A stretch of 36,518 nt of DNA. Origin: an uncultured Eggerthellaceae bacterium (lineage in GTDB: Bacteria > Actinomycetota > Coriobacteriia > Coriobacteriales > Eggerthellaceae). This document shows positions 10,993 to 33,817 of the stretch, in pieces. The notes beneath the pieces were generated by a model. It searched no databases. It worked only from the letters and a program-made list of their open reading frames with translations, and had not been told where the DNA came from. Where the stretch lies: the NCBI GenBank assembly GCA_904420215.1, contig CAJFUR010000185.1:1-36518 (forward strand), given 5' to 3'. A program made the translations under genes and the position numbers. Positions within the stretch are counted from its first letter, which is position 1, and each line of letters starts with the position of its first letter.

Positions 10993-11231
10993 GCCTCTAG
11001 AGGATACGCGCAGGAAGTTGTCTCGGCCTCCCTTTCCGGGCGCATGCCCGCATGCCCGGGTGCTGACGCTTCGGCGACGGGAGGGTGAAACCTCGCGGAG
11101 CGTTCCATGGCGTCTCCAATCCCTGTGATAGAACGAAACCCGCATTTGACAACTGCGCCTGCGACCGCGTGGCCTGCGGCCTCGCGGCTTCGCGCGGCGT
11201 GGTTTCCGTTTCCAGGGAAGGAGTTGAGAGC

Positions 11232-13235: not shown

Positions 13236-13266
13236 GCGAAATCCGATGCAACAGGAGGTTTCACCC

Positions 13267-14748
13267 ATGGAGCAAACCAGTACGAGTAAGATCCTCGACA
13301 AGATGGACGAAGAGACGAAGTACCTGACGCCCATTTTCGGCTCGGAGTCTTCCGACGCGCAGATGCCGCGCACGAAGATGAACGCGCAGCCGGTGGAGCC
13401 GCGCATCGCCTACGAGATGATCAAGGAATACCTGTCCATCGAGGGCAACGCCACGCAGAACCTCACCACGTTCTGCCAAACCTACATGGAGCCCATGGCC
13501 ACCAAGATCATGGCCGAGGTCATGGAGAAGAATGCCATCGATAAGGACGAATATCCCATGACGGCCGACCTGGAGAACCGCTGCGTCGCCATGATCGGCG
13601 ACTTGTGGCACGCCGACCCGGCCGAAGAGCCCATGGGCACCTCCACGGTGGGCTCGTCGGAAGCCTGCATGCTAGGCGGCCTGGGCATGCTGTTCCGCTG
13701 GAAGAAGCTGGCGCGCGACGCCGGCATCGACATCTACACCTCGCAGCGCCCGAACCTGGTCATTTCGTCGGCCTATCAGGTGTGTTGGGAGAAGTTCTGC
13801 CGCTATTGGGACATCGAGATGCGCCTTGTGCCGCTCGAGAAGGACCACATGTCGCTGAACATGGACACCGTCATGGACTACGTGGACGACCACACCATTG
13901 GCATCACGGCCATCCTCGGCATCACCTACACCGGCACGTACGACGACGTGAAGAAGCTCGACCAGCTGGTGGAGGCCTACAACCAAGAGCACCCGAAGAT
14001 GCCCATCCGCATTCACGTGGACGGCGCGTCGGGCGCCATGGTGGCCCCCTTCGTGGATCCCGACTTGGAGTGGGACTTCCGCCTGAAGAACGTCTGGTCC
14101 ATCAACGCCTCCGGCCACAAGTACGGGCTGGTGTATCCCGGCATTGGCTGGGTCGTCTGGCGCGGGAAGGAAGCGCTTCCGGAAGACCTGATCTTCTGGG
14201 TCAGCTATCTGGGCGGCGAGGAGGCCACCATGGCCATCAACTTCTCCCGCAGCGCCTCGCAGATCGTGGGGCAGTACTACGTGCTGATGCGCAACGGCTT
14301 CGAGGGCTTCAAGGAAATCCAGGAGCGCACGCTGGACGTGGCGCGCTACTTGGCGCTGGAACTTGACGACATGGGCATCTTCGAAATCTACGAGGACGCC
14401 AGCAACATCCCCATCGTGTGCTGGGGGCTGAAAGACGATGCCGGCGTGGAGTGGTCGCTGTACGACCTGTCCGACCGTTTGCGCATGAGCGGCTGGCTGG
14501 TGCCCGCCTACCCGCTGCCGGCCAACATGCAGGACGTCACGGTGCAACGCGTGGTGGCGCGCGCCGACTTCTCCATGCAGCTGGCCATCAAGCTGGTGGC
14601 GGACATCAAGAAGGAAATCGACAACCTGAACAAGGCGAAGTTCGTCACCGGCAACACGCAGGGCGTCATTCAGACGGGCTTCAACCACGGCGGGCGCTCC
14701 GCTGTGGACAAGTCCTCGCAGGAGCAGGCGAAGGCCGCCGCGAAGTAG
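13267..14748 (+). CDS. gadB: Glutamate decarboxylase (PLP-dependent)
   Basis: GSSEACMLGGL, HVDGASGAMVAPF, PLP-lysine region SINASGHKYGLVYPGIGW, C-terminal GFNHGG. Confidence 0.93.
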   Translation: MEQTSTSKILDKMDEETKYLTPIFGSESSDAQMPRTKMNAQPVEPRIAYEMIKEYLSIEGNATQNLTTFCQTYMEPMATKIMAEVMEKNAIDKDEYPMTADLENRCVAMIGDLWHADPAEEPMGTSTVGSSEACMLGGLGMLFRWKKLARDAGIDIYTSQRPNLVISSAYQVCWEKFCRYWDIEMRLVPLEKDHMSLNMDTVMDYVDDHTIGITAILGITYTGTYDDVKKLDQLVEAYNQEHPKMPIRIHVDGASGAMVAPFVDPDLEWDFRLKNVWSINASGHKYGLVYPGIGWVVWRGKEALPEDLIFWVSYLGGEEATMAINFSRSASQIVGQYYVLMRNGFEGFKEIQERTLDVARYLALELDDMGIFEIYEDASNIPIVCWGLKDDAGVEWSLYDLSDRLRMSGWLVPAYPLPANMQDVTVQRVVARADFSMQLAIKLVADIKKEIDNLNKAKFVTGNTQGVIQTGFNHGGRSAVDKSSQEQAKAAAK

Positions 14749-15088
14749 TGGGCGACGGGGCGCAGGCCGGCAGGGCCGGCGCGCCCGCATGGCGAATTGC
14801 TTGGCACGAAGGCGCGGGAGTCCGCAAGGGCGCCCGCGCCGTTGCGTTGGGGGGGGCGGGAACGGGGAGCCGGTCGGTTGGGGAGCGCCGGCGCATGCCG
14901 CAGCGGTGCGCGTTTCGACCGGACAGCGCGCCTTCGCCGACCGATAACCGTACAAATGGTGACATTCGCCGCAAGGTAAGGCTAAAATAAAGCACGACTT
15001 GTCGAATGCGGAATTTGCAAAATGGGCTTTTTCGGATTCCCCGAGAGGTTCGGCTGCTTTGACCGCACAGGGAGGAAGGGAAAGCTGC

Positions 15089-16090
15089 ATGAAAAAGTTC
15101 AAGGCGGTTCTGGCCCTCGCGCTCGCCGGCGTGATCGGCCTCGGTTTGGCGGGCTGCGGCAGCGGCTCGGGCGGCGACTCGTCCGAGGGCGGCACCACGG
15201 GCGGCACCACGAACATGCGCTTCATGACCGGCGGCGAATCCGGCACCTACTACGCCTACGGCAGCGTGCTGGCGCAGTACGCCACCAACGGCGACTACGG
15301 CCTGTCCGTCACGGCCCTGTCCAGCAACGGCTCGCAGGCCAACGTGCAGGCGCTGCAGGACGGCGACGCGGACATCGTGTTCTGCCAGTCCGACGTGCTG
15401 GCGTATGCCTACGACGGGACCAGCCTGTTCGAAGGCGCCGCGTACCAGGACTTCTCCATCGTGGCCAACCTGTACCAGGAACAGGTGCAAATAGTGACGT
15501 GCGACCCGAACATCAAGACGGTGGCCGATCTTGCGGGCAAGACGGTGTCGGTGGGCGCCGCCAACTCGGGCGTGTACTTCAACGCCGTTGACATCCTGGC
15601 GGCATACGACCTCACGCTCGACGACATCGAGCCGGTGTACCAGTCGTTCGCCGACTCCGCCGATTCCCTGAAGGACGCCAAGATCGACGCCGCCTTCATC
15701 GTGGCCGGCGCTCCCACCACGGCCATCACCGACCTGTCCACCACCAAGACCGCGTATCTGGTGTCCATGGACGACGAGCACGTGGAGAAGCTGCTGGCCG
15801 CTTCCCCGTACTACATGAAGGACGTCATTTCCGCCGACACGTATGGCCTTGACGCCGACGTGACCACCGTTTCGGTGGGCGCCGTGGTCATCGCGAACGA
15901 CAACGTTCCGGAAGAAGCCATCTACAACTTCACGAAGTCGCTGTTCGACGGCGCGCAAGACAATGCGAGCGCGCATGCCAAGTACGAGGAGCTGGAGCTG
16001 CAGAACGCCGCTTCGGTGGCTTCCGTGGGATACCATCCCGGTGCCGCCAAGTACTTCGAGGAGCAGGGTGTCACGGTGAGCGCCAAGTAG
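15089..16090 (+). CDS. TAXI-family TRAP transporter solute-binding lipoprotein
   Basis: Lipobox LAGC; 'MRFMTGGESGTYYAYGSVLAQYA' and 'VSVGAANSGVYFNAVDILAAYDLTLDDIEP' typical of TAXI SBPs. Confidence 0.9.
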   Translation: MKKFKAVLALALAGVIGLGLAGCGSGSGGDSSEGGTTGGTTNMRFMTGGESGTYYAYGSVLAQYATNGDYGLSVTALSSNGSQANVQALQDGDADIVFCQSDVLAYAYDGTSLFEGAAYQDFSIVANLYQEQVQIVTCDPNIKTVADLAGKTVSVGAANSGVYFNAVDILAAYDLTLDDIEPVYQSFADSADSLKDAKIDAAFIVAGAPTTAITDLSTTKTAYLVSMDDEHVEKLLAASPYYMKDVISADTYGLDADVTTVSVGAVVIANDNVPEEAIYNFTKSLFDGAQDNASAHAKYEELELQNAASVASVGYHPGAAKYFEEQGVTVSAK

Positions 16091-16101
16091 GTTTCGCTTT
16101 C

Positions 16102-16141
16102 GGGCCGGCCTTCGAGAGGGAGGTCGGCCCGCTGGCTTTTT
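16102..16141 (+). terminator. Candidate terminator/attenuator between TAXI SBP and TRAP permease
   Basis: GGGCCGGCCT / AGGTCGGCCC stem (one G-U in RNA) followed by gctggcttttt. Confidence 0.45.
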
Positions 16142-16517
16142 CGAAGGCTGCTGCAGACCATGGTCTGGCGCGGCCTTCGCTTGGATTTGCAAGTGTTTTG
16201 GGCCGGATTGGCCTTCGGGCTCCCGGCTGTTTCGGCAGTTTCTGGGCGCATCGTCGCATCGCGCTGCCGCATTCGGGGGATTCGCGCAAAATGCCGCATG
16301 CGGAAACGGTGCCCGCAAGACGCAGCGCCCGTGTAGCACGCCCGATAGGCACGCTTTGCGCGCGAGCCAGGTTCATGGGACATGCTGCACGGCAATATCG
16401 TCTGCGCGCCATGCTGCCGTGCGTTGTGTCTGCATCCAAAAAACATTTACGAATCCAAGCACATGTTCGCTGCGTTTCCCTGCCGCGTTCACCGCGGAAG
16501 GCTCGAGGAGGATGCAC

Positions 16518-18668
16518 ATGGTACGGTTCCTGGGGAAAGGCAAGGCCAAGGCGGCTGAAAAGGAAGCTGCCGCCACTGCCGCCACGGCAGCTGCCGGCGC
16601 CAACGGCGCGTCAGCGGAGGCTATAGACGTCGATGAGGTCATGCGCAAGTACGACAAGGAGTCGAACACGCGCATCTGGGAGGGCATTCCCAAGATCGTG
16701 GTCACGGCCTGCATGGTGGCGTTTTCGGTGTACTGCCTGCTCATGACGCTGCTCTCCACCGAACAGGCCGAAGCGCGCCTTGCCCGCTTCTTGGCCTTCG
16801 TCATCCTGATCGGCTACATGATGTACCCCTCGCGGAAAAAGGAGCACCGGGTCAACCACATTCCGTGGTACGACGTGGTGCTGGCGCTTGCCGGGTTCGG
16901 CGCATTCATGTACTTCGCCGTGAACTGCACCGAAATCCTGCTCATGGGCGCGCGCATCGAACCTTTGCACGTGGCGCTGGGCATCGTGGGCATTGTGGTG
17001 CTGGTGGAGCTGTGCCGGCGCTGCGTGGGCCTGCCCATCATCGTCGTCGCGGGCTGCCTGGTCATTTACGCCTTCTACTGGCAGGCCACTTCCGGCGCCG
17101 TGTTCGACGCGGCCGGCGCGTTGCGCAAGGTGGTGCAGAAGCTGTTCTACACCACCAGCGGCGTCATCGGCACGCCCATTAACGTGTGCTACACCTATAT
17201 CATCCTGTTCGTCATCTTCGGCGCGTTTCTGGAGCGCACGGGCATCGCCAACTTCTTCATTTCGCTTGCCAACCGCATTGCCGGCTGGTCGAGCGGCGGC
17301 GCGGCCAAGGTGGCCGTCATCTCGTCGGCCTTGTGCGGCATGGTGTCCGGGTCTTCGGTGGGCAACACGGTCACCACCGGCACGGTCACCATCCCCATGA
17401 TGAAGAAGACCGGCTACAAGCCCGAATTCGCCGGCGCCGTGGAGGCGGCGTCGTCGTCGGGCGGGCAGATCATGCCCCCCATCATGGGCGCGGCGGCCTT
17501 TCTCATGGCCGAGTACATGGGCATCCCCTACATGGAAGTGGCCGCCAAGGCCATCGTGCCGGCGCTTCTGTACTTCGCGGGCATCTTCATTGCCGTGCAC
17601 TTGGAGGCGAAGAAGCTGGGCCTCAAGGGCGTTTCCCGCTCCGAGCTGCCTTCCATAAGCTATTTGGTCAAGAACTGCTATCTGGTGCTGCCGCTGGTGC
17701 TTCTGGTGTGGCTGGTGTCCTCGGGCGCGCGCACCATGGCAGCGAGCGCGGCCATCTCCATTGCGGGCGCGTTCCTCATCGGGTTCATCAACTTCCTCAT
17801 CACGAACTGGAGCCGCCGCGTGGAAGGCGAGACGTTCGGCGCGGTGTTCGTCGAAACGTGCAAGGTGGCGTTCTTCACGGCCGTGGACGCGTTCGCCTCG
17901 GGCGCGCGCAACGCCATCGCCGTGGCCGTGGCATGCGCCATGGCCGGCCTCATCGCGGGCAGCATCACGGTGACGGGCCTTGCCTCCACCATCATCAACG
18001 TCATCGTCATGGCGGCGGGCGACATGATCATCGTGGGCCTGGTGTTCACCATGATCTGCTGCCTCATTCTGGGCATGGGCGTGCCCACCACGGCGAACTA
18101 CTGTATCATGGCTTCCACCTGCGCGCCCATCCTCATGCAGCTGGGCATCGACCCCATCTGCGCGCACTTCTTCGTGTTCTACTTCGGCATTGCGGCAGAC
18201 ATCACGCCGCCGGTGGCCCTTGCCGCCTATGCGGCCAGCGCCATCGCGAAGTCGCGGCCCATGGCCACGGCGGTGAACGCCACCAAGTTGGGCATCGCCA
18301 AGTTCGTGGTGCCCTACATATTCGCATTCAGTCCCATTTTGCTCATGGTGGGCGACGACGTGACCATTTTCGCGGTGGTGGCGAACACGCTGACGGCTCT
18401 GGTGGGCGTGTTCGGCCTGCAATGCGCGCTGACCAACACGCTGTTCGGGCGACACCAGAACCCGCTGTTCCGTCTGATTCTGGCGGCGGGCGGCTTAGGC
18501 ATGATGATTCCCGGCACGGCTTCGGACATCGCGGGCCTTGCCGTCATCGTGGTGGTGTGCGGCGCGCAGTGGATGCTTGCCAAGAAGAGCAGCTTGCGGG
18601 GCAAGGAGCCGGAAACTCTGGACGCCGCCGCGCCGGAACTGATTGAGGAAGTGAAGGAAGAATCCTAG
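16518..18668 (+). CDS. TRAP transporter fused permease (4TM/12TM)
   Basis: Large multi-TM protein with DctM-like 'GGQIMPPIMGAAAFLMAEYMGIPY' and 'LGMGVPTTANYCIMAS'; GAGGAGG RBS 6 nt before the ATG. Confidence 0.9.
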   Translation: MVRFLGKGKAKAAEKEAAATAATAAAGANGASAEAIDVDEVMRKYDKESNTRIWEGIPKIVVTACMVAFSVYCLLMTLLSTEQAEARLARFLAFVILIGYMMYPSRKKEHRVNHIPWYDVVLALAGFGAFMYFAVNCTEILLMGARIEPLHVALGIVGIVVLVELCRRCVGLPIIVVAGCLVIYAFYWQATSGAVFDAAGALRKVVQKLFYTTSGVIGTPINVCYTYIILFVIFGAFLERTGIANFFISLANRIAGWSSGGAAKVAVISSALCGMVSGSSVGNTVTTGTVTIPMMKKTGYKPEFAGAVEAASSSGGQIMPPIMGAAAFLMAEYMGIPYMEVAAKAIVPALLYFAGIFIAVHLEAKKLGLKGVSRSELPSISYLVKNCYLVLPLVLLVWLVSSGARTMAASAAISIAGAFLIGFINFLITNWSRRVEGETFGAVFVETCKVAFFTAVDAFASGARNAIAVAVACAMAGLIAGSITVTGLASTIINVIVMAAGDMIIVGLVFTMICCLILGMGVPTTANYCIMASTCAPILMQLGIDPICAHFFVFYFGIAADITPPVALAAYAASAIAKSRPMATAVNATKLGIAKFVVPYIFAFSPILLMVGDDVTIFAVVANTLTALVGVFGLQCALTNTLFGRHQNPLFRLILAAGGLGMMIPGTASDIAGLAVIVVVCGAQWMLAKKSSLRGKEPETLDAAAPELIEEVKEES

Positions 18669-22611: not shown

Positions 22612-23043
22612 GTGGTATCATACGTTCGCACGATACTTTGGAAGGCGAGGTTTGCTCGGTTGTTTGAGGCATTGCGTATAAACGAGAAGTCCGGCGTGCC
22701 CGTGTGGGTGCAGATCAGGAACCACCTGCTGTTCCTGATCAAGTCGGAGCAGATCAAACCGGGCGACGTGTTGCCCACCGTGCGCGAATTGGCGGCGCGG
22801 CTGGGGGTGAACTACAACACGGTGCACAAGGTGTACCAAGACTTGGAGGCAGACGGCCTCATATGTTCGAGCAGGGGAAAGCGCTCGTTCGTGGCCGACG
22901 TGGACAGCGGGAAGCTCGATTTGCCCGAGTCGCCGGTTGACCTGGTGATAGACGAGTTGGTGCGCGTCGCCCGGGAGTCGAGCATCACGCTTGCCGACGT
23001 GCTGCTGCGCGTGGAGCAGCGCTTCGGGGAGGGCGGCTGGTAA
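22612..23043 (+). CDS. GntR-family regulator, YtrA-like (short)
   Basis: 'VPVWVQIRNHLLFLIKSEQIKPGDVLPTVRELAARLGVNYNTVHKVYQDLEADGLICSSRGKRSFV'. Start uncertain; true start may lie near 22672. Confidence 0.85.
   Translation: MVSYVRTILWKARFARLFEALRINEKSGVPVWVQIRNHLLFLIKSEQIKPGDVLPTVRELAARLGVNYNTVHKVYQDLEADGLICSSRGKRSFVADVDSGKLDLPESPVDLVIDELVRVARESSITLADVLLRVEQRFGEGGW
22615..22636. promoter_or_regulatory. Imperfect palindrome GTATCATACGTTCGCACGATAC, candidate operator
   Basis: 8 of 11 symmetric base pairs; lies at the GntR 5' region; similar to 24539-24558. Confidence 0.4.
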
Positions 23044-23256
23044 GGAGCCGGCGAAGCGGGTGCAGGGCCGATGGCGGGACGCAGGGCGCGGCGCATAGCG
23101 GCGCGCAGCAGGATGGCATGCGGCAGTGGCTCGCAGCGGCGTGCAGCGGGGGCGGCAGTGTTCGGCGTGCGGCTCGCGGCGGCGCGCGGCGAGACGGGGC
23201 GACACGTGTAGGGGAGAATGGCGCAAGGCAGGGGAAGGCGTCGGAACGGAGCCAAC

Positions 23257-24180
23257 ATGAGCAAGAAGAAGCCCGACGAAGAAGAGCCGAAGGAAGAAAG
23301 CGAGATCACCGAGATCGACGCTGCGTTCGAGGAAACGGCTACCAGCCGTTTTGGTGCCACGCTTCTACGTTGGATCATTACACTGGCGGTGGCGCTCGCG
23401 TTCGGCGCGGCGGCGTACCTGCTGGCGCAGCCCGCATGGGCGGTGGTCGGCGTTGTGGCCGCGGCCATTCTGTTCAGCTGCATGCACGTGGTTCTGGAGT
23501 GGGAACGCGCCGTGGTGCTGCGCTTCGGCAAGTTCAACCGCGTTGCGGGCCCCGGCCTCATTTTCATGATCCCGTTCGTGGAATATTCCGCGGCCACCGT
23601 CGATTTGCGCATGCGCTCGACGGCGTTCAAAGCCGAACACGTGCTCACCAGCGACTTGGTGCCGGTGGACGTGGATGCCGTCTTGTTCTGGATGGTGTGG
23701 GACGCGGGCAAGGCGTGCTCCGAGATACGCAACTACGAGCGCATGGTCTACTGGGTGGCGCAAACCACGCTGCGCGACGTCATGGGCGGCGTGGGCATTG
23801 CGCAGATGGGCGTGCGCCGCACGCAGATAGACAAGGAAGTCGCCGGCATTCTGGAGCGCAAGACCAGCGAATGGGGCATCACCATCGTGTCGGTGGAAAT
23901 CCGCGACATCGAGATACCCGCCGACCTGCAAGAATCCCTTTCCGCCGAGGCGCGCGCGGAACGCGAGTACAACGCGCGCATCATTCTGGCCGAGGTGGAA
24001 AAGGAAGTGTCGGAAATGTTCGTGGACGCCGCGCGCACCTACAAAGAGGAAGACGCGGCGTTGCAGCTGCGCGCCATGAGCTTCGTGGCCGACAGCGTGA
24101 AGGAAAAGGGCGGCCTAGTGGTGGTCCCCAGTGCGCTTTCCGAAGCCTTCGAGGGCTTGGAGAAGATAGCGAAGGGATAG
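23257..24180 (+). CDS. SPFH/stomatin-like (slipin) membrane protein
   Basis: Two N-terminal TM helices then 'WERAVVLRFGKFNRVAGPGLIFMIPFVEYSAATVDLRMRSTAF', 'LRDVMGGV', 'AEARAEREYNARIILAEVEKE'. Confidence 0.9.
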   Translation: MSKKKPDEEEPKEESEITEIDAAFEETATSRFGATLLRWIITLAVALAFGAAAYLLAQPAWAVVGVVAAAILFSCMHVVLEWERAVVLRFGKFNRVAGPGLIFMIPFVEYSAATVDLRMRSTAFKAEHVLTSDLVPVDVDAVLFWMVWDAGKACSEIRNYERMVYWVAQTTLRDVMGGVGIAQMGVRRTQIDKEVAGILERKTSEWGITIVSVEIRDIEIPADLQESLSAEARAEREYNARIILAEVEKEVSEMFVDAARTYKEEDAALQLRAMSFVADSVKEKGGLVVVPSALSEAFEGLEKIAKG

Positions 24181-24333: not shown

Positions 24334-24502
24334 GGCACTTCGGCTTTCTCCGATCAAGCTTTGAACGCCCATCCGAAGCAAGCGCGCCCCGTTTCCTGCC
24401 ACTCAAGCTTTGAACGTCCATCCGAAGCGAGGGTGCCCCGCTTCCCATCGGCCAAATATTGTGCCCGTTTGGAATGCGGGCGTTTCGCTTCCGGTCATTC
24501 AA
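24334..24502. repeat. Degenerate ~49-bp-period repeat array
   Basis: 24354-24396 and 24403-24445 match at 38/43 positions with a 49-bp period; more diverged copies on both sides. Confidence 0.65.
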
Positions 24503-24525
24503 GTATTCTTAAAAAAGAATCATAG

Positions 24526-24572
24526 GATACTGCGATAAGTATCATAAATTCGTATGATTTATGATAAGATAC
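24526..24572. promoter_or_regulatory. AT-rich region with nested inverted repeats, candidate operator/promoter of the SUOX-cytochrome operon
   Basis: TATCATAAAT (24540-24549) / ATTTATGATA (24557-24566) perfect IR; GATACT (24526-24531) / AGTATC (24538-24543). Confidence 0.5.
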
Positions 24573-24723
24573 GCGCAGAGGGGTATTGACAAAACCGGGG
24601 GATTCCCGAAAGAGGCGTGGGACAAGTCGGTTTTGCAGTACTGGTTCGCATGTTGGCGTTGTGCTGACAGGTGCGGCGCCGGCGTCATGTCGGCACCAAG
24701 CCGGGAGGAGGGAAAGGAGAGAC

Positions 24724-26319
24724 ATGAGATTCACGCGAAATCGCAAGATGGTGGTCTCTGCCGTGACGGTGGCGCTGGCAGCCGCTGCTTTAGCGGGATG
24801 CGCCCAGAACGCCTCGACGGGGGAGACGACCGAAGAGGCGGGCGCGGTTGGCCAGGCCACCGTGCAGTACCAGTCGGAAGGGCGCTACAAGGACAACGTG
24901 GCGGAATTCCCTGCCGGTATCGACGCCGACTTGGGCACGAAGAACGCCGAGCTCAACGCGCCTTTCAGCTACGTTGACCGCAGCGGCTTCACCGTGCAGC
25001 CGGTGCCGAGCGACGACATTGGCTGGAACATCAGCTACTTGAATGCCGACCAGCGCGGCTGCACCTCGTGCCACACGCTGGAAGACGCGCTCATGATGCT
25101 GGACACGTACCACGGCACCATCTTCATGGGGTATCCCACCGAGCAGACGCTGTCCACGTGCGTGGCCTGCCACATCTGGGCAGACCCGCTGCGCACCTCC
25201 ATCCATTCGACGCACTTGGGCAACGAGCTGTTCGAGAACAAGAACGGCACGTGCGAGTCGTGCCACTACATCGACGAGAACGGCGACTTCAAGCGCTGGG
25301 ATTACGAGAAGTACAACCTGTACAAGGGCATCACCGACGTGGCGGCCAGCGACGCCGACCTCACGGTGACCTACGACCAGGAAACGCTCACCTCGAACGA
25401 CGACTTCTTCTACAAGAGCATCAAGGAATACGGCGACTTCGACGCGAGCGACTGGCGCACCGACGACGGCAACATGGACCCCGAGCTGTACAACAACTGG
25501 GTGTTCTCGGTGGGCGGCAACGTGGAGAACCCCATTGAAATGACGCTTCCCGAACTGGTGGAGAAGTTCGGCACGGTGACCACCGTCATGAAGCAGCAGT
25601 GCACCATCAACGGCGCGGGCAACGCCGCCATCGCGCAGGTTGAGGTCACGGGCGTTCCCATGCAGGCGATCATCGACTACGTGAAGCCGCAGGGCGGCGT
25701 GAACGCGGTGGAATTCCTGACCGAGGACCCGTATCCCAACGTGGGCAAGACCTACAACATCCCCTTCACGGCCATGACCGAGAACGATTCCGTCCTGGTC
25801 ATCGAAATGAACGGCGAGACGCTTCCCAACACGCAGGGCTACCCCTGCTCCGTGTGGACGGCGGGCGGGTCTGCCGCCGGCGGCATCTTCAAGGTGTGCA
25901 CGGGCGTGAACTTCCTGGAGACCGACGAAGCCGACGCCGCATCGGGCTACTTCCTGGGCGGCTTCGAGGATGCCGGCTTGGACGGCGCTCCGGCCGACAA
26001 GCCCAACAGCGCCGTGCTGAACTACCCTTCGGGCGTGGTTCTGGAAGGCGTCGCTGGCACGGAAGTGCAGCTGGAAGGCTTCGCGGACGCGTTCGACGAG
26101 CCGATTGCACGCATAGAGTTCTCGTGGGACCACGGCCAGACGTGGACGACGCTGGAAACGCCGGATAACGACCCGCAGTACTGGACGTACTGGCGCATGG
26201 GCTTCACGCCTCCTTCGGAGGGAGCCTATCTGCTCGACATTCGCACGACCAGCATCCAGCCCGACGGCACGGAGCGCGTGAATGGCGTCAACACCCAGTT
26301 CCTGCTCAATGTGAAATAG
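24724..26319 (+). CDS. Triheme cytochrome c / sulfite-oxidase-like molybdopterin oxidoreductase fusion lipoprotein
   Basis: Lipobox LAGC; three CxxCH motifs (CTSCH 25060-25074, CVACH 25159-25173, CESCH 25252-25266); SUOX-like 'QQCTINGAGNAAIAQVEVTGVPMQAIIDYV...GYPCSVW' and a C-terminal Mo-co dimer-like Ig-fold region ('IARIEFSWDHGQTWTTLE'). Confidence 0.82.
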   Translation: MRFTRNRKMVVSAVTVALAAAALAGCAQNASTGETTEEAGAVGQATVQYQSEGRYKDNVAEFPAGIDADLGTKNAELNAPFSYVDRSGFTVQPVPSDDIGWNISYLNADQRGCTSCHTLEDALMMLDTYHGTIFMGYPTEQTLSTCVACHIWADPLRTSIHSTHLGNELFENKNGTCESCHYIDENGDFKRWDYEKYNLYKGITDVAASDADLTVTYDQETLTSNDDFFYKSIKEYGDFDASDWRTDDGNMDPELYNNWVFSVGGNVENPIEMTLPELVEKFGTVTTVMKQQCTINGAGNAAIAQVEVTGVPMQAIIDYVKPQGGVNAVEFLTEDPYPNVGKTYNIPFTAMTENDSVLVIEMNGETLPNTQGYPCSVWTAGGSAAGGIFKVCTGVNFLETDEADAASGYFLGGFEDAGLDGAPADKPNSAVLNYPSGVVLEGVAGTEVQLEGFADAFDEPIARIEFSWDHGQTWTTLETPDNDPQYWTYWRMGFTPPSEGAYLLDIRTTSIQPDGTERVNGVNTQFLLNVK

Positions 26320-26333
26320 CGGAGGCGACAACA

Positions 26334-27131
26334 ATGGCTGACAAGAAGCAAATTGCAGTAAGCGCCGTGGCCGCCACTTCCTTGCTGCTGGCGGGTGCGA
26401 CCCCGGCCTTGGCGGCAACGGCGGACGAAGCCGCCGGCGCGGCGGGCCAGCTTGCAAGCGAAAGCGCCGCGCAATCGGCCGAGACGGCAGGCGGATACGT
26501 GGCGGCGGACGCCTCCGAGGGGCAGTTCGCATGGGACCAGACCACCATCACGCCGAACTCGGTCATCAGGGAGGTGTTCCGCACGGCTACCAACGCGCTG
26601 TGCAACGCCACGAACGACCTTGCGGTTGACAATCCCCTGCAATGGCGCCTTTCGGTTTCGGGGGACGTGGAGAACGCCTTCAGCGCCACCATCGACGAAC
26701 TGGCGCAGGAACAGGCGGTGCAGCAGACGATGACGTGCACGTGCGGCGGCAACCCGTCGGACGGCAAGGCCATCATCACGGCCGAGGTGAAAGGCATCCC
26801 GGTGAGCTATCTGGTGGGCCGCGCCGCCGCGCAGGAGGGCGCCAACACCATCACGTTCGTGTCCGCCGACGGCACCGAGGCGGCCATGCCGCTGGTGTAT
26901 GCCGTCGGGCACCATGGGGTGGTTTCGTTCGAGATCAACGACGAGGACCTTTCGGCCTCGGTGGGCGGCAACAACCAGCTGTGGCTGGCGGGCGCGCCGG
27001 CGAACTACTTCGTGCGCGACATCGTCGAGATCCGCATCACGTGCGAGGAAACCGTCCCGCCCAACCCCGGCGAGGGCATGGAGTATCCCAACAGCCCCAA
27101 CGTCGGCGTGCTTTCGGGCGCGGTGGCATAG
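26334..27131 (+). CDS. Secreted SUOX-like molybdopterin-domain protein without heme or dimerisation domain
   Basis: Sec signal peptide (...LLLAGATPALA); 'QWRLSVSGDVENAFSATIDELAQEQAVQQTMTCTCGGNPSDGKAIITAEVKGIPVSYLV' parallels the upstream SUOX domain. Confidence 0.65.
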   Translation: MADKKQIAVSAVAATSLLLAGATPALAATADEAAGAAGQLASESAAQSAETAGGYVAADASEGQFAWDQTTITPNSVIREVFRTATNALCNATNDLAVDNPLQWRLSVSGDVENAFSATIDELAQEQAVQQTMTCTCGGNPSDGKAIITAEVKGIPVSYLVGRAAAQEGANTITFVSADGTEAAMPLVYAVGHHGVVSFEINDEDLSASVGGNNQLWLAGAPANYFVRDIVEIRITCEETVPPNPGEGMEYPNSPNVGVLSGAVA

Positions 27132-27193
27132 GGCGGCGAAAGCCGCAGGGCGTCGCGCCGGGTCGCTTCGGCCGTCCGGCGCGGGGCTTGCCG

Positions 27194-27475
27194 CTAGCCT
27201 TCCACGTGAAGCTCGGCGACGGCTGCGAAGGGGCTGGTCCTGCCGTCTTCGGTGACCGACCGCACCTTCAGCTGGTAGACGCCTTCCCGTTGGGGGGTGT
27301 AGGTGTACGTCCAGTGGATCATGAGGTCGGGGTTGGACGCGCGCGTGTCCTGGCGGGTCCAGGTCTTTCCGCCGTCGAGGGAGAATTCGAGGGCCACGAT
27401 GTGGTTGCCGTAGTCGTCGGCGTACCCCTCGAACGTGGCGGGCTGGCCGACCTTTCCTTGGACAGGGGCTATCAT
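27194..27475 (-). CDS. Stand-alone Mo-co oxidoreductase dimerisation-like domain protein (93 aa)
   Basis: 'QPATFEGYADDYGNHIVALEFSLDGGKTWTRQDTRASNPDLMIHWTYTYTPQREGVYQLKVRSVTEDGRTSP' matches the Mo-co_dimer style seen at the C-terminus of the 24724-26319 product. Confidence 0.75.
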   Translation of the reverse strand: MIAPVQGKVGQPATFEGYADDYGNHIVALEFSLDGGKTWTRQDTRASNPDLMIHWTYTYTPQREGVYQLKVRSVTEDGRTSPFAAVAELHVEG

Positions 27476-27556
27476 GCGGCTCCTTTCGGGGCTGATGGGG
27501 AACAACGGGCGGATGCTGGTGACAGTATACCGCTTCGGCAAGGGATTGGAGAAATC

Positions 27557-28234
27557 ATGCGAGACGATACGGGCATCCCACGGCGCACTCTGCTGCAAGG
27601 GGCTGCCGTGTTGGGGGCGGCGGCGCTCGCTGGGGGCGCCGTTGCCGGCGGGTACGCGCCGGCCTTCGCCGAGGACGGCCAGAAGGCCGCTCCGGTGCAG
27701 GCCGGCGGGGATGCCGCGCCGCAAGAGGGCGTTCAGTACGGGTTTTTGGTGCGCATGTCGAACTGCGTGAACTGCCAGCAGTGCGTGGAGGCGTGCCGCA
27801 AGGCGAACAACACGCCGGAGGGCGTGCCGGCGCGCCGCACGGTCGTGCCGTACAAGACGGCGAACGGCCAGAAGGTGTACGTTTCCACCGCCTGCATGCA
27901 TTGCGAGGACCCGGCCTGCGCGACCGTGTGTCCGGCCAAGGCCATTGCCAAGGGCGAGGGCGGCGTGGTGACGGTGGACCGCAACCGGTGCATCGGCTGC
28001 AAGTACTGCTATCAGGCGTGCCCGTTCGGCGTGCCGCACTACACCTCCGAAGGCATGGACAAGTGCGACTTGTGCCTGGAGGCCGGGGTGGCCCTGGGCG
28101 ACACGCCGAACTGCGCTTCGGCCTGCAAGTTCCGCGCCTTGCACTTCGGCACCATCGAGGAGCTTGCGGCTGCGTCGGGTGGACGGGCGCAGCGCATCGA
28201 CGCGTCAACCGGCCCGTCGTATCTGCTGGCTTGA
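27557..28234 (+). CDS. Tat-exported 4Fe-4S ferredoxin-type electron transfer subunit (DmsB/NrfC-like)
   Basis: RRTLLQGAA Tat motif; CVNCQQCVEAC, CMHCEDPACATVCP, CIGCKYCYQACPFGVP, CDLC cysteine clusters. Confidence 0.9.
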   Translation: MRDDTGIPRRTLLQGAAVLGAAALAGGAVAGGYAPAFAEDGQKAAPVQAGGDAAPQEGVQYGFLVRMSNCVNCQQCVEACRKANNTPEGVPARRTVVPYKTANGQKVYVSTACMHCEDPACATVCPAKAIAKGEGGVVTVDRNRCIGCKYCYQACPFGVPHYTSEGMDKCDLCLEAGVALGDTPNCASACKFRALHFGTIEELAAASGGRAQRIDASTGPSYLLA

Positions 28235-28285
28235 GCGCGTCGTGCGAACGGAATGCAGTCCGATATGCAGGTAGGGAGGTAATCG

Positions 28286-29257
28286 ATGGCCGAATTGCAA
28301 TCGGTGTGGGGGTGGCAGCCGGCCCTGTACTTGTTCTTGGGGGGCATGGGGGCCGGCGCCTTCATCATGGCTGCCATCCTGTTTTTCTATGACAGGGAAA
28401 GCAACAAGAGAACCATCGGCGTTGCGGCGTGGGCCGCTACGGTCTGCTTGATCGTCGGCTTGCTCTTGCTGCTGTCCGAGCTGACGAACCCGCTGCGGGG
28501 CATGCTGATGTGGCAAAGCTTCAGCAACACGGCCTCGTGGATGACGTTCGGCGCCTGGGTGGTGTTCGCCGCGGTGGTGGTGTTCGGCGTGATGGCCGTG
28601 CTTTCCACCGAGCGGTGGGTCAAGCCGGTGTCCAAGAAGTGGAAGGGCTATGCCACGGTGCGCAAACGCCTCCGCCCGGTGCTGGCGGTGGTGGGCATGG
28701 CGCTGGGCCTGTGCGTTGCCGTGTACACCGGCGTTCTGCTGATGTCGGTTCCGGGCGTGCCGCTGTGGAACACCGTGCTGCTGCCGTGCCTGTTCACGGT
28801 TTCGGCTTTGGACACGGGCGTTGCCTTGGTGGAGATAGTTGCCGCGTCGCCCAAGCGCGCGGCGCTGTCCGCCAAGACCCACCGGCTTCTGGAGACGTCG
28901 GTGGTGGTGCTGGTCGTGCTGGAGGTTGCCGTGTTGGCGGCGTTCGTGCTGGCCATGCAGGGAAGCGATGCCGGCTCGGCCGTGGGCGCCACGGCTGCGG
29001 CATCGGCAAGGCTTTTGACCGAAGGGCCGCTGGCGCTTGCCTTCTGGCTTCTGGTGGGCGCATGCGGCTTGGTGCTTCCGCTGGTCATGGCCGTGTACGG
29101 CATGATTGCGCACCGGAAGAAGAAGCAGACGCGCCCGGGCATGCTGGTGGGTGCCGCCGGCGCGCTGGTGGGCGGCTGCGCCCTGCGCTTCCTGGTTCTG
29201 ATGGCCGGGCTGCACGCCGACGTGGTGGCGGGCGCGGTTGCGAAGATGGTGGCCTAG
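28286..29257 (+). CDS. NrfD/PsrC-type polytopic membrane quinone-interacting subunit
   Basis: Multi-TM protein starting 'MAELQSVWGWQPALYLFLGGMGAGAFIMAAILFF', typical NrfD N-terminus; downstream of the Fe-S subunit. Confidence 0.85.
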   Translation: MAELQSVWGWQPALYLFLGGMGAGAFIMAAILFFYDRESNKRTIGVAAWAATVCLIVGLLLLLSELTNPLRGMLMWQSFSNTASWMTFGAWVVFAAVVVFGVMAVLSTERWVKPVSKKWKGYATVRKRLRPVLAVVGMALGLCVAVYTGVLLMSVPGVPLWNTVLLPCLFTVSALDTGVALVEIVAASPKRAALSAKTHRLLETSVVVLVVLEVAVLAAFVLAMQGSDAGSAVGATAAASARLLTEGPLALAFWLLVGACGLVLPLVMAVYGMIAHRKKKQTRPGMLVGAAGALVGGCALRFLVLMAGLHADVVAGAVAKMVA

Positions 29258-29332: not shown

Positions 29333-29848
29333 ATGGGGAACGGGACGACGACGCGGAGGAATTTCCTGAAAGTGGGCGCCGCCTGCGGTGCGGGCGTGTT
29401 GGGGGCGTCGCTGCTGGGCGGCTGCGCTGCCGGAGAAGGTTCGCCTGCGGGGACTTCGGCGGCCACGCTCGAGGAAGTCTCGTGGGACGGGGAGTTCGAC
29501 GTCGTGGTGGTGGGCTTCGGCGCGGCCGGCGCGTCGGCGGCCATTGCCGCGGCCGAAAGCGGCGCGCGGGTCCTCGTTGCCGACAAGGCCCCCGAAGGGA
29601 GCGAAGGCGGCAACAGCCGCTACAGCTCGCAGCTGTTCGCCTCGGCCGAAAGCGAGGAAGACGCGCTTTCCTACGTGCGCGCCCTTGCGGGCGGCTATGC
29701 CGTGCCCGACGACGTGCTGGCGGCCTATGCCGCCGGCCTGTCCTCCGTGCGCGGCCAGATGGCGGATTGGGGGCTGGACGAGGGGGAGCTGCTCGACGTG
29801 ACCGACGTCACGCCGGACGACATTGCGGCCTTGGCAGAAGGCCGGTGA
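29333..29848 (+). pseudogene. N-terminal half of a Tat-exported FAD-dependent flavoprotein reductase
   Basis: TTRRNFLKVGAACGAGVLGASLLGGC signal; DVVVVGFGAAGASAAIAAAESGARVLVADKAPEGSEGGNSRYSSQLF FAD-binding region; ORF ends before the substrate domain. Confidence 0.75.
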
Positions 29849-29916: not shown

Positions 29917-31560
29917 ATGTGCTTTAGACCTTCGAACTCGGAAGCGACCAGCGTGATTGCCTGCCCCAACTGCGGCAAGTCGAACAGCATGGACGCGACG
30001 ACCTGCAAGAGCTGCGGTGCGAGCCTCGACGGCTCCACGCCGCCGGAAATTGCCGCCCCGCAGGCGCCCGTGCTGGCGGGCGCGGTGATTCCCGGGCGCT
30101 ACAACCTGCCGCCGCTTTCCGTCAGCTATCCCGAATTGCCGGGCGCTTCCGCCATCCGGACGAACCTCGTGGGGTCGTCCATCAACGACGGGGCGCTGTG
30201 GCGCTTCCTCAAAAAAGGCGTGGTGGCGCGCAAGGACCGCATCGACTGCTGGTATTCCTCGCCGGTGACGGCGCTCATCCAAGACCCCGAAACCAAGGCC
30301 GTCGTGGGCGTGGAGGTGGAACGCGACGGCAGGAAGCTGAACATTGCCGCCCGCAACGGCGTGGTGCTGGCCTGCGGCGGGTTCGAGAACGACGGGCCGG
30401 GAATCCAGCACTACCTCGACCGCCCGAAGGCGTTGCCGGTGGGGTCGCTGTACAACGAGGGCGACGGCGTGCGCATGGCGCAGGCCGCGGGGGCGCGGAT
30501 GTGGCACATGGGCGCATGGGAGAGCGGGGGCGTGGGCCTGGTTGCCGAAGGCGACCGCACGCGCAGTTTGGGCGAGGACATCGCGTTTTTCAAGTCGGGG
30601 TCGGTGATGCTCGTGGGAGGCGACGCCCGGCGCTACCTTGCCGAAGACGCCGAGCAGCGCGGCGGGCGCGTGCTTGTGGGCGGCACGTGGGTGGTCCCTG
30701 CGCGGCCGGACGCGAACTGCTTCGTGTTCGACGAGGCGCAGCGCCGCGCCATGGAGGAAGGTGCGCTTCCCAAGCCGTACCCCAACTGGAGCGACGATAT
30801 GTCCGAGGAGGTGGCGTCGGGCAAGGTGGCCAAGGCGAGCACGGTGTGGGGGCTGGCCGAGGCGTTGTCCCTCGACCCGGCGACCCTGCAGGCCACCATC
30901 GACGCCTTCAACGCCGCCGCGGCATCCGGCACCGACCCCTTCGGGCGCAAACCCGAAACCATGCGGGCCTTTGGCGAAGGCCCCTATTACGGGCTGGCGG
31001 TGTTCCCTGCGGTGCTTGCCACGCAGGGAGGCCCCGAGCGCACGGCGAAGGCCGAAGTGGTGCACGCCGCCGGCGACCCCATCCCGCACCTGTACGCGGC
31101 AGGGGAGCTGGGAAGCGTGACGGCGCGCAACCGCCAGGGCGGCGGCAGCTTGGCGGAGTGCATGATTTTCGGCAAGATAGCAGGCGAACAGGCGGCAAGC
31201 GAGAAGGAGGACGCCTTTTCCGTGCCCGGAGACGTGGCGTATGGGCCGGGGTCGGGCGACGTTTCGGTGTACGACGAGGCTCCCGACGCGTCGGGCTTAG
31301 CCGCAGGCGAGGCGGTTGGCGTGGGGGAAGGGCTGGGAGGCCCCATTTGGGTGAAGGTGCGCGGCACTGCGGGCGCACTGCAGGCGGTGGAAGTGCTGCG
31401 CCACAGCGAGCACGCCGAAGTGGGAGCCGTGGCGCTTGACGAGCTGGCCGCGCGGATGGCGCAGGCGGCAACGCACGAGGTGGACGTCGTGGCTGGCGCG
31501 ACGGTTACCAGCCTGGGGATGCAGGAAGCGGTTGCGAACGCGCTGGAGGGGGATGCATGA
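29917..31560 (+). CDS. Zinc-ribbon segment fused to the C-terminal half of a flavoprotein reductase plus C-terminal FMN-binding domain
   Basis: AAAGGAGGGGCC RBS then MCFRPSNSEATSVIACPNCGKSNSMDATTCKSCGA; from about 30110 'SYPELPGASAIRTNLVGSSINDGALWRFLKKG...NRQGGGSLAECMIFGKIAGEQA' flavoprotein; DVVAGATVTS FMN motif. Confidence 0.75.
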   Translation: MCFRPSNSEATSVIACPNCGKSNSMDATTCKSCGASLDGSTPPEIAAPQAPVLAGAVIPGRYNLPPLSVSYPELPGASAIRTNLVGSSINDGALWRFLKKGVVARKDRIDCWYSSPVTALIQDPETKAVVGVEVERDGRKLNIAARNGVVLACGGFENDGPGIQHYLDRPKALPVGSLYNEGDGVRMAQAAGARMWHMGAWESGGVGLVAEGDRTRSLGEDIAFFKSGSVMLVGGDARRYLAEDAEQRGGRVLVGGTWVVPARPDANCFVFDEAQRRAMEEGALPKPYPNWSDDMSEEVASGKVAKASTVWGLAEALSLDPATLQATIDAFNAAAASGTDPFGRKPETMRAFGEGPYYGLAVFPAVLATQGGPERTAKAEVVHAAGDPIPHLYAAGELGSVTARNRQGGGSLAECMIFGKIAGEQAASEKEDAFSVPGDVAYGPGSGDVSVYDEAPDASGLAAGEAVGVGEGLGGPIWVKVRGTAGALQAVEVLRHSEHAEVGAVALDELAARMAQAATHEVDVVAGATVTSLGMQEAVANALEGDA

Positions 31561-32408
31561 GAAAGCGTACGGGGAAACGCTTGGCGGAGCACATGGCGGA
31601 GTGCGCGGGGGAGTGCATCGGCCGTCGGGGCTTCGTGGCGGGTGCCGCCGGCGCGGCGCTTGCGCTGGCAGGCGCGGGGCTGACGGGCTGTGCCGCAGGC
31701 GGGCAGCGCAGCGACGCGGCGGGCCGGGGAGATTCGCAGGAGGGCGCCGGTGCGCTGGAAGATGCCGGCGCGCAGGAGGTCGCCGGCAGAGCGGGGGATG
31801 CCGGCGCGGCGGGCGCGAAGCCGCTGCCTGCGCCGGAGGCCGATCCGGCCAGCGAATTCGGCGTGGACGCGAACATCTCCATGCGCACGATCGACGAGTG
31901 GCTTGACCGCGACGACGTGGCGTACCGCGACATGCGCATGCTGTTCGACCCGGCGGACTACGGCGCCATGGGCGGCGACCCCGACCTTTCGGCCACCATC
32001 GAGGGTTTCAAGGTGGTGCCGTTCCCGCTGGTGGCAACGCTGCCGCCCCTGCCCGTGGCGGGGGCGTACACCGGCTTGACGGCGTGGAAGGTCGAGTGGT
32101 CCGACGATGGCGGCGTGTCATCGGCCGCGCCGAACTACCGGGAATCGGAACGCTTGCTGGAGGACTTGTTCCCGAAAGACCGGGCGATCTTCCTCATGTG
32201 CGGTGCGGGCGGCTATGCGGGGCAGATGAAAGCGCTGCTGGCCTTTCTGGGTTGGGACGCGCAGAAGCTGTACAACGTCGGGGGGTTCTGGTCGTATGCC
32301 GGAGCGCGTGCCGTCCAGCTCATCGAGCGCAGCGGCGGCGAAACGCTGCACTGCATGTGGCGGGCCGACGTGGCCCCCATCGACTTCACATGGATGCACG
32401 CCCTCTAG
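31557..32408 (+). CDS. Rhodanese-like lipoprotein
   Basis: RRGFVAGAAGAALALAGAGLTGC signal/lipobox; 'DRAIFLMCGAGGYAGQMKALLAFLGWDAQKLYNVGGFWSYAG' rhodanese-like active-site Cys; ATGA overlap with the upstream gene. Confidence 0.7.
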   Translation: MRKRTGKRLAEHMAECAGECIGRRGFVAGAAGAALALAGAGLTGCAAGGQRSDAAGRGDSQEGAGALEDAGAQEVAGRAGDAGAAGAKPLPAPEADPASEFGVDANISMRTIDEWLDRDDVAYRDMRMLFDPADYGAMGGDPDLSATIEGFKVVPFPLVATLPPLPVAGAYTGLTAWKVEWSDDGGVSSAAPNYRESERLLEDLFPKDRAIFLMCGAGGYAGQMKALLAFLGWDAQKLYNVGGFWSYAGARAVQLIERSGGETLHCMWRADVAPIDFTWMHAL

Positions 32409-32552: not shown

Positions 32553-32683
32553 TCTGCATAGGGGTCGGGGCGATGGACAAGGTTCATCTGCGCCCGGCTC
32601 CCTTTGATTCGGTTTCGGGGTGCTGCGCAACGCGGGGATGCACGGTACGCCCCCCCCCCGTCGTCTCTGCGTTTCGTGTTCCC

Positions 32684-33817
32684 ATGGTAGCGACGTCATC
32701 CGACTATAAGATGGCGAAAATCCAACAGAAGTGCGGCGTCAAGCCGGAAAACATGTTCTATCGAAAATTCGACACATTGCAAATGCCCCTTTATCCAACG
32801 GCGGAGCGCTTGCAGCAAGACATCGTGGAAGCGTGGGAGAGGTCGGACAAAGATGCGCTGTTCTACGTGCTCCTTGACGAAGTGCAAGACGTTGAGGGCT
32901 GGGAGCGTGTGGTCAGGCGGCTTCACTCGCAGGATGGCATCGACGTCTACCTCACCGGGTCGAATGCCAGCATTCTTTCGTCCGATCTGGCCACTTTGCT
33001 TTCGGGAAGAAGCATTGCTCTTGACGTGTACCCGCTTGGTTTCGCGGAGTACGTTGACTTCTCGGAAGGCTTCGGTTCCGACTCTATGGAGAAGCTGTTC
33101 GCCAACTACGTGCGCTATGGCGGCATGCCGAGCCTCTTTTCGCTGATGGAACGTTCGGAAGACTTCATAGAGCGGGAGCTTTCGGCCATTTTCGACACCG
33201 TTTTGCTCAACGACGTGGCCCTGCGGATGGGGATACGCGACATGGCGCTGCTCGAACGTCTGGTGACCTATTTGTTTTCGACGTCGGGCAACCTGTTCTC
33301 CACCCGCAAGATTACGGGGGCGCTTGCAAGCGCAGGTCGCAAGACATCGAACGACACGGTGGACAACTACATCAAGGCGCTCGAAGAGGCGTTCGCGCTT
33401 GTGGGCGTTCAGCAAACGGGCCTCGCGGGCAAACGGGTGCTCTCCCCACTGCGCAAGTTCTATGCCGCTGACACGGGGCTGCGCAACCTGCCGAACGGGT
33501 TCGCTCCGGGCGATTTCGGGTTTCAGCTGGAAGGTGTCGTGTTCATGGAGCTTTTGAGGCGCGGGTACCGGGTGGAAGTGGGGCCGCTCGACCGGGCGGA
33601 AGTGGATTTCGTGGCAATGCGACGCGACGAAAAGCTGTACGTGCAGGTTGCGGAATCCATGCTCGATGCGGCAGTATACGAACGCGAGCTTGCCCCGCTC
33701 AGGCTCATTCCCGACTCGTTTCCCAAGATGGTTCTTGCCCTCGACCGTTTCCGCATGGGCACGACCGAGGACGGTATCCGCGTCGCCAACCTGATGGACT
33801 GGCTGCTCGGCGCGTAG
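32684..33817 (+). pseudogene. DUF4143-type ATP-binding protein lacking its N-terminal P-loop region
   Basis: 'LFYVLLDEVQDVEGWERVVRRLHSQDGIDVYLTGSNASILSSDLATLLSGRSIALDVYPLGFAEY' is typical; no Walker A upstream in any frame; C-terminal DUF4143 nuclease-like region present. Confidence 0.7.

Follow-up and report, generated by a model that had tools for sequence, protein, structure and literature searches.

We analysed a 36,518-nucleotide stretch of DNA from an uncultured Eggerthellaceae bacterium (hereafter the window), which is one whole contig (CAJFUR010000185.1) of a 185-contig metagenome-assembled genome (MAG), and found in it a real, widespread and apparently undescribed variant of the NrfD-linked respiratory complexes. 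In this variant, a triheme cytochrome c fused to a domain of sulfite-oxidase (SUOX) fold (cytSUOX) and a second SUOX-fold protein (SUOX2) are encoded beside an iron-sulfur protein (FeS) and an NrfD-family membrane subunit. The mechanism is moderately supported, and we give a probability of about 0.5 to a reading of the operon as a menaquinol-oxidising extracytoplasmic electron-delivery complex, with a SUOX heterodimer free of molybdenum cofactor (Moco) as scaffold and a flavoprotein encoded downstream as the likely acceptor. Our literature searches turned up no account of the cytSUOX-SUOX2 family. The genes on which this reading is built are the following.

24724-26319, plus strand: cytSUOX, a Sec lipoprotein with a triheme bis-His cytochrome c, a SUOX-fold domain and a dimerisation-like domain
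26334-27131, plus strand: SUOX2, a SUOX-fold protein exported by Sec, in which Cys90, Cys135 and Cys137 are invariant
27194-27475, minus (opposite) strand: dim, a leaderless protein of 93 amino acids with an immunoglobulin-like/dimerisation domain
27557-28234, plus strand: FeS, an NrfC/DmsB-like protein exported by twin-arginine translocation (Tat), with 16 Cys, enough for four [4Fe-4S] clusters
28286-29257, plus strand: NrfD-family quinol/quinone membrane subunit, recognised by profile matches and hydropathy
29333-29848, plus strand: flavN, a Tat lipoprotein, the N-terminal half, binding flavin adenine dinucleotide (FAD), of a fumarate/urocanate-reductase-like flavoprotein
29917-31560, plus strand: flavC, leaderless, with an MCFRP zinc ribbon, a C-terminal FAD domain and an FMN_bind domain

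The first five genes, with the triheme-SUOX fusion among them, had been proposed at this place by an earlier reading made without database searches (the sequence-only reading), and profile matches for cytSUOX, SUOX2, FeS and NrfD bear this out. All five, dim included, are under purifying selection, with ratios of non-synonymous to synonymous substitution (dN/dS) of about 0.06-0.24, and their order is common to three further genomes, those of an uncultured Gordonibacter MAG, Raoultibacter timonensis and G086, with dim inverted in each; together, the selection and the identical order exclude a set formed by chance. An error in the assembly of the MAG was also rejected, since the arrangement was found again in the R. 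timonensis genome and in two other genomes.

The FeS protein bears an RR signal and matches Fer4_11 (5.5e-17) and the NrfC profile, and the membrane subunit matches PF03916 (2.1e-33) and the NrfD profile (8.3e-29). With an NrfD and a four-cluster Fe-S subunit both present, the operon contains, as judged by homology, an NrfD/PsrC-type quinone-reactive module. We searched for NrfD proteins independently of SUOX2 and took those with about 50% identity or more to the NrfD of the window as its subfamily. SUOX2 lies within 4 kb of 36 of the 42 subfamily NrfDs (26 genomes) versus 0/52 more distant NrfDs (Fisher p 4e-20, calculated on relatives that are not independent). This co-occurrence in other genomes is both specific and recurrent. 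It supports the previous proposal of an extracytoplasmic complex, linked to quinol, in which FeS and NrfD are combined with a partner of SUOX fold, and the condition under which that proposal was to be given up, a lack of SUOX-fold matches or of co-occurrence elsewhere, did not arise.

SUOX2 itself was detected in 34/140 Eggerthellaceae genomes at E <= 1e-20, with up to nine strong matches per genome. Its matches in a 300-genome sample of the class were confined to Eggerthellaceae, and in a sample of the phylum the proteins from outside the family matched it over the SUOX domain only. A SUOX2-type gene directly follows each of the 85 cytSUOX genes in the examined Eggerthellaceae loci (85/85), a count that is strong but biased, as most of these loci were located through SUOX2. 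At least three changes are required to explain how NrfD-linked members are distributed over the cytSUOX tree; the link with NrfD is thus either ancient, with several later losses, or has arisen more than once.

We also inspected the six subfamily NrfDs that have no SUOX2 (L161-L166). Three of these loci (L161, L162 and L164) encode in a row a Tat flavoprotein, a lipoprotein with 5-6 CxxCH motifs, FeS and NrfD; L165 encodes a lipoprotein with five CxxCH motifs, FeS and NrfD, L163 a Tat flavoprotein, FeS and NrfD together with a low-GC cytochrome gene that a simple gene caller did not resolve, and L166 lies at a contig end. Since a 5-6-heme lipoprotein or a flavoprotein accompanies FeS and NrfD in five of these six exceptions, cytSUOX occupies the usual position of the shuttle cytochrome. 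More distant NrfDs (L167, L169 and L171) are found with FeS and a Tat protein of 831-845 amino acids, which by its size and context would be of dimethyl sulfoxide (DMSO) reductase type. In the window, no DMSO-reductase-type subunit, of the kind that carries bis-pyranopterin guanine dinucleotide (bis-PGD), adjoins the module.

Next to its lipobox and three CxxCH motifs, cytSUOX has an Oxidored_molyb domain (PF00174, 1.2e-19) and a C-terminal dimer-like region that aligns to SorA, and SUOX2 matches PF00174 at 3.6e-16; both profile matches exceed the cut-off, in line with the SUOX-like domains that had been suspected in these proteins. We compared 45 cytSUOX and 45 SUOX2 proteins with a control set of 17 canonical actinobacterial SUOX proteins, and the canonical-SUOX hidden Markov model matched all of them, with median scores of 103 bits for cytSUOX (45/45) and 60 bits for SUOX2 (45/45). 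By their sequences, both proteins belong to the sulfite-oxidase superfamily by fold. The six heme-ligand histidines of cytSUOX (those of the three CxxCH motifs plus His130, His161 and His164) are invariant in all 45 proteins, as one would expect of hemes that transfer electrons and are not catalytic.

The residues that anchor Moco have been lost across the family. At four positions of the domain alignment that are invariant in 17/17 controls (His137, Trp78, Trp156 and Arg188), cytSUOX has other residues, and Arg142 persists in just 5/45; in SUOX2 the His and Trp are missing, and the second half of the pocket does not align to canonical SUOX. By motif, a Tat signal is present in 0/45 cytSUOX and 0/45 SUOX2 proteins; the FeS proteins carry RR signals, and an RR motif is present in 11/17 canonical controls. 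Insertion of Moco takes place in the cytoplasm and, given that no Tat motif was found, Moco is unlikely in cytSUOX and SUOX2. The SUOX domains of both proteins are probably without Moco, as are QrcB and ActB in the DMSO-reductase fold, and the suggestion of a working molybdoenzyme at this locus is supported neither by the anchoring residues nor by the export signal.

By analogy with homologous complexes (PMC8076601), NrfD would take electrons from menaquinol, the Tat-exported FeS protein would relay them through its four [4Fe-4S] clusters to the three bis-His hemes of cytSUOX, and these hemes would pass them to a terminal acceptor, which in the window clade would most likely be the flavoprotein with flavin mononucleotide (FMN) and FAD. 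This flavoprotein, predicted to be of organic-acid-reductase type, would then reduce an organic acceptor. Through their SUOX-fold domains, cytSUOX and SUOX2 would form a heterodimeric scaffold derived from a dimer of the sulfite-oxidase family, most likely molybdopterin-free.

The flavoprotein adjoins NrfD in 4/4 genomes of the window clade. It had been noted before as a gene downstream of the operon; it is indeed present, but as two genes split around a zinc ribbon, and it is the likelier terminal enzyme. FAD_binding_2 covers residues 1-99 of 414 of the profile in flavN, and residues 139-414 of 414, together with the zinc ribbon, in flavC, which also matches FMN_bind (2.4e-12) and resembles urocanate reductase and flavocytochrome c3. 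The split point is identical in four genomes (the window, L042, L080 and L081), and the relative L053 reads through it. That the split gene is a pseudogene was rejected, both halves being under purifying selection (dN/dS about 0.14-0.27). Co-export of a folded flavN-flavC complex by Tat may explain how flavC does without a leader. Zinc-ribbon segments of this MCFRP kind are also frequent at other places in the relatives.

A second leaderless protein is encoded by dim, a gene with a ribosome site of its own whose product bears no signal peptide. The domain proposed for it stood, dim being SorA-like (3.3e-7 to the C-terminus of SorA, with Mo-co_dimer at 17.3 bits, below the Pfam cut-off of 22.7 bits); the idea of a co-oriented operon subunit did not, as the gene lies on the minus strand and is leaderless. 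Stand-alone dim proteins always start with MIAP or similar and are signal-less, and their genes lie behind SUOX2, farther upstream with a LuxR gene in between, or in inverted orientation. A pseudogene was rejected by dN/dS (about 0.06-0.13), and an invertible or phase-variable segment by the lack of good inverted repeats at its borders and the single orientation across four genomes. Readthrough or frameshifting from SUOX2 into dim was rejected too, as same-strand dims are sometimes in frame and sometimes out, and the dim of the window is inverted and has its own ribosome site.

The relatives show how variable this partner is. A sister clade has SUOX2 and dim fused and exported. In a third group the exported SUOX2 stops near residue 165 (s2N), with the remainder plus dim forming a separate leaderless gene (s2C-dim). 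Eleven s2N face a single full s2C-dim in G135 (L115-L119, L127 and L128), and five face one in G005 (L113); in G134, G136 and G001 (L123) the two are unlinked. In this split group the one leaderless gene of a genome is sometimes hundreds of kb away from the exported N-terminal halves. Near some cytSUOX loci (L066, L072, L075, L077 and L078), dim is fused, signal-less, to a tyrosine phosphatase (PF13350, 2.4e-48 in the L075 copy, which was profiled). No comparable route of export is evident for dim with SUOX2, or dim may act in the cytosol; how the leaderless halves would be exported is a well-defined puzzle open to experiment. We tentatively suggest, with more doubt than confidence, that the Moco-free SUOX heterodimer scaffolds an Eggerthellaceae-specific NrfD module whose exported subunits are completed or controlled by leaderless C-terminal halves, one of which could be shared by up to eleven N-terminal halves.

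Several observations weigh against electron delivery through a pure SUOX scaffold to the flavoprotein. At most cytSUOX loci, NrfD and flavoprotein genes are both absent from the immediate neighbourhood. A hairpin between NrfD and flavN makes co-transcription with the flavoprotein uncertain, and this hairpin and the divergent arrangement of dim and FeS make the limits of the transcription units uncertain as well. The Mo-ligand Cys, which a pure scaffold would find superfluous, is retained in 45/45 cytSUOX and 45/45 SUOX2 proteins, and in SUOX2 Cys90 and Cys135 are invariant besides Cys137, which suggests a chemistry of its own. Sec and Tat signals were called by motif and not by a trained predictor. 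The AlphaFold2 models of cytSUOX and SUOX2 (predicted local distance difference test scores of 31 and 33) were unusable, so the Moco-free reading is drawn from sequence.

In an alternative reading, terminal reduction would be the task of cytSUOX and SUOX2 themselves, at a redox-active thiol site or a metal site other than molybdenum that lies outside the membrane (Cys293 of cytSUOX; Cys90, Cys135 and Cys137 of SUOX2), and the flavoprotein would be a separate enzyme. The invariance of these cysteines across deep paralogues, the many cytSUOX-SUOX2 loci where no flavoprotein adjoins (most of them) and the up to nine strong paralogous matches per genome, which resemble a substrate-diversified reductase family, are all in its favour. 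We nevertheless consider it unlikely: many exported copies of SUOX2 lack the latter half of the fold, a plain multiheme cytochrome suffices with the same FeS and NrfD in the SUOX2-free exceptions, and no SUOX-fold enzyme is known to work through a non-molybdenum thiol or metal site.

A genuine molybdoenzyme, in which cytSUOX, SUOX2 or both bind Mo-molybdopterin through the retained Cys and, with quinol electrons received through NrfD, FeS and the hemes, reduce or oxidise a substrate, is in our estimate improbable. The significant Oxidored_molyb matches, the Cys invariant in 90/90 proteins and Lys155 of the pterin loop, retained in 35/45 cytSUOX, would be expected of it, and folding of the complex in the cytoplasm, ahead of its export, would account for the leaderless dim and C-terminal halves; the loss or near loss of the other anchoring residues, the missing second half of the SUOX2 pocket and the lack of Tat motifs in either protein argue against it. 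Reverse flow, with an extracellular donor reducing the hemes and electrons entering the menaquinone pool through NrfD, has the precedent of Qrc, which has a matching part list in another fold (PMC6303296), but is very improbable, as no donor enzyme (hydrogenase or formate dehydrogenase) was seen at the locus and the same FeS-NrfD subfamily adjoins flavoprotein reductases.

Beyond the genes listed above, the surroundings of the operon contain the following features.

22612-23043, plus strand: gntR, GntR-family regulator (PF00392, 7e-15)
22615-22622, at the gntR start: GTATCATA, candidate GntR operator, one of two copies in the window
23218-24180, plus strand: SPFH/Band 7 membrane protein (PF01145, 2.3e-35), a module partner with a probable start at 23257
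24500-24575, upstream of cytSUOX: conserved cis-element, candidate GntR operator/promoter, with TATCATA/TATGATA inverted repeats and the second GTATCATA copy at 24539
31557-32408, plus strand: lipoprotein with an RR signal and a CGAGGYA motif that is rhodanese-like

The GntR and SPFH genes, which the sequence-only reading had missed, belong to the module. gntR is a conserved upstream neighbour in four genomes, and an alignment of four genomes shows the element at 24500-24575 to be an AT-rich block of about 70 bp conserved between diverged flanks. Since GTATCATA occurs at gntR and upstream of cytSUOX and nowhere else in the window, the sequence suggests that GntR regulates both genes through these candidate operators; its overlap with the start of gntR given above makes a later true start probable. 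The SPFH gene recurs beside FeS-NrfD modules, and GntR and SPFH genes are also found at L167, L169 and L171, with the large Tat protein, and at L172 and L173, with a 6-CxxCH lipoprotein and a flavoprotein. We therefore rejected the idea that they are specific to SUOX, and in Eggerthellaceae the SPFH protein may accompany NrfD complexes in general.

The RR-signal lipoprotein has orthologues at the matching position in three other genomes, plus in L076, and no match in Pfam, NCBIfam or the PDB. Sulfur chemistry, hinted at before on account of this rhodanese-like gene, was rejected for want of profile or PDB support. Farther away, the window encodes at 11085-18668 an amino-acid permease paired with a pyridoxal phosphate-dependent decarboxylase and, after these two, an NMT1-like lipoprotein and a DctM-type subunit of a tripartite ATP-independent periplasmic transporter, and at 32573-33817, downstream of the operon, an AAA_14/DUF4143 ATPase.

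Gut Eggerthellaceae have large sets of respiratory enzymes acting on drugs, plant compounds and host molecules. The cytSUOX-SUOX2 class would escape surveys restricted to flavin- and DMSO-reductase-type enzymes (e.g. PMC13060105).

Among known systems, the NrfD complexes reviewed in PMC8076601 have bis-PGD, heme, Fe-S and hydrogenase subunits as partners, and no SUOX-fold partner is listed there. SorAB/SorT and the MsrP/YedY-type enzymes share with the operon proteins the SUOX fold, the Mo-ligand Cys and a dimerisation domain; the operon proteins differ in lacking the Moco-anchoring residues and in having a Sec signal, a triheme fusion and a link to NrfD. The NrfB-NrfC-NrfD arm of NrfABCD offers the same path from quinol through NrfD, NrfC and a multiheme cytochrome to a terminal enzyme, but no gene for the pentaheme nitrite reductase NrfA is present at the locus, and the cytochrome of the operon is a triheme, SUOX-fused lipoprotein. 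Within the family, the operons at L161-L164 share the NrfD subfamily (54-62% identity), a Tat FeS protein and an extracytoplasmic flavoprotein, with a plain multiheme cytochrome in place of the triheme-SUOX fusion and SUOX2. QrcABCD and alternative complex III (ActABC) combine a multiheme cytochrome c, a cofactor-less subunit of DMSO-reductase fold, a four-cluster Fe-S protein and an NrfD-type subunit (PMC6303296), a part list that the operon matches insofar as its SUOX domains are cofactor-free, as their sequences suggest. Their cofactor-less subunit has the DMSO-reductase (bis-PGD) fold, whereas that of the operon has the SUOX fold, is paired and has one copy fused to the cytochrome, and for this difference of fold we do not class the operon as a member of the Qrc/ActABC group.

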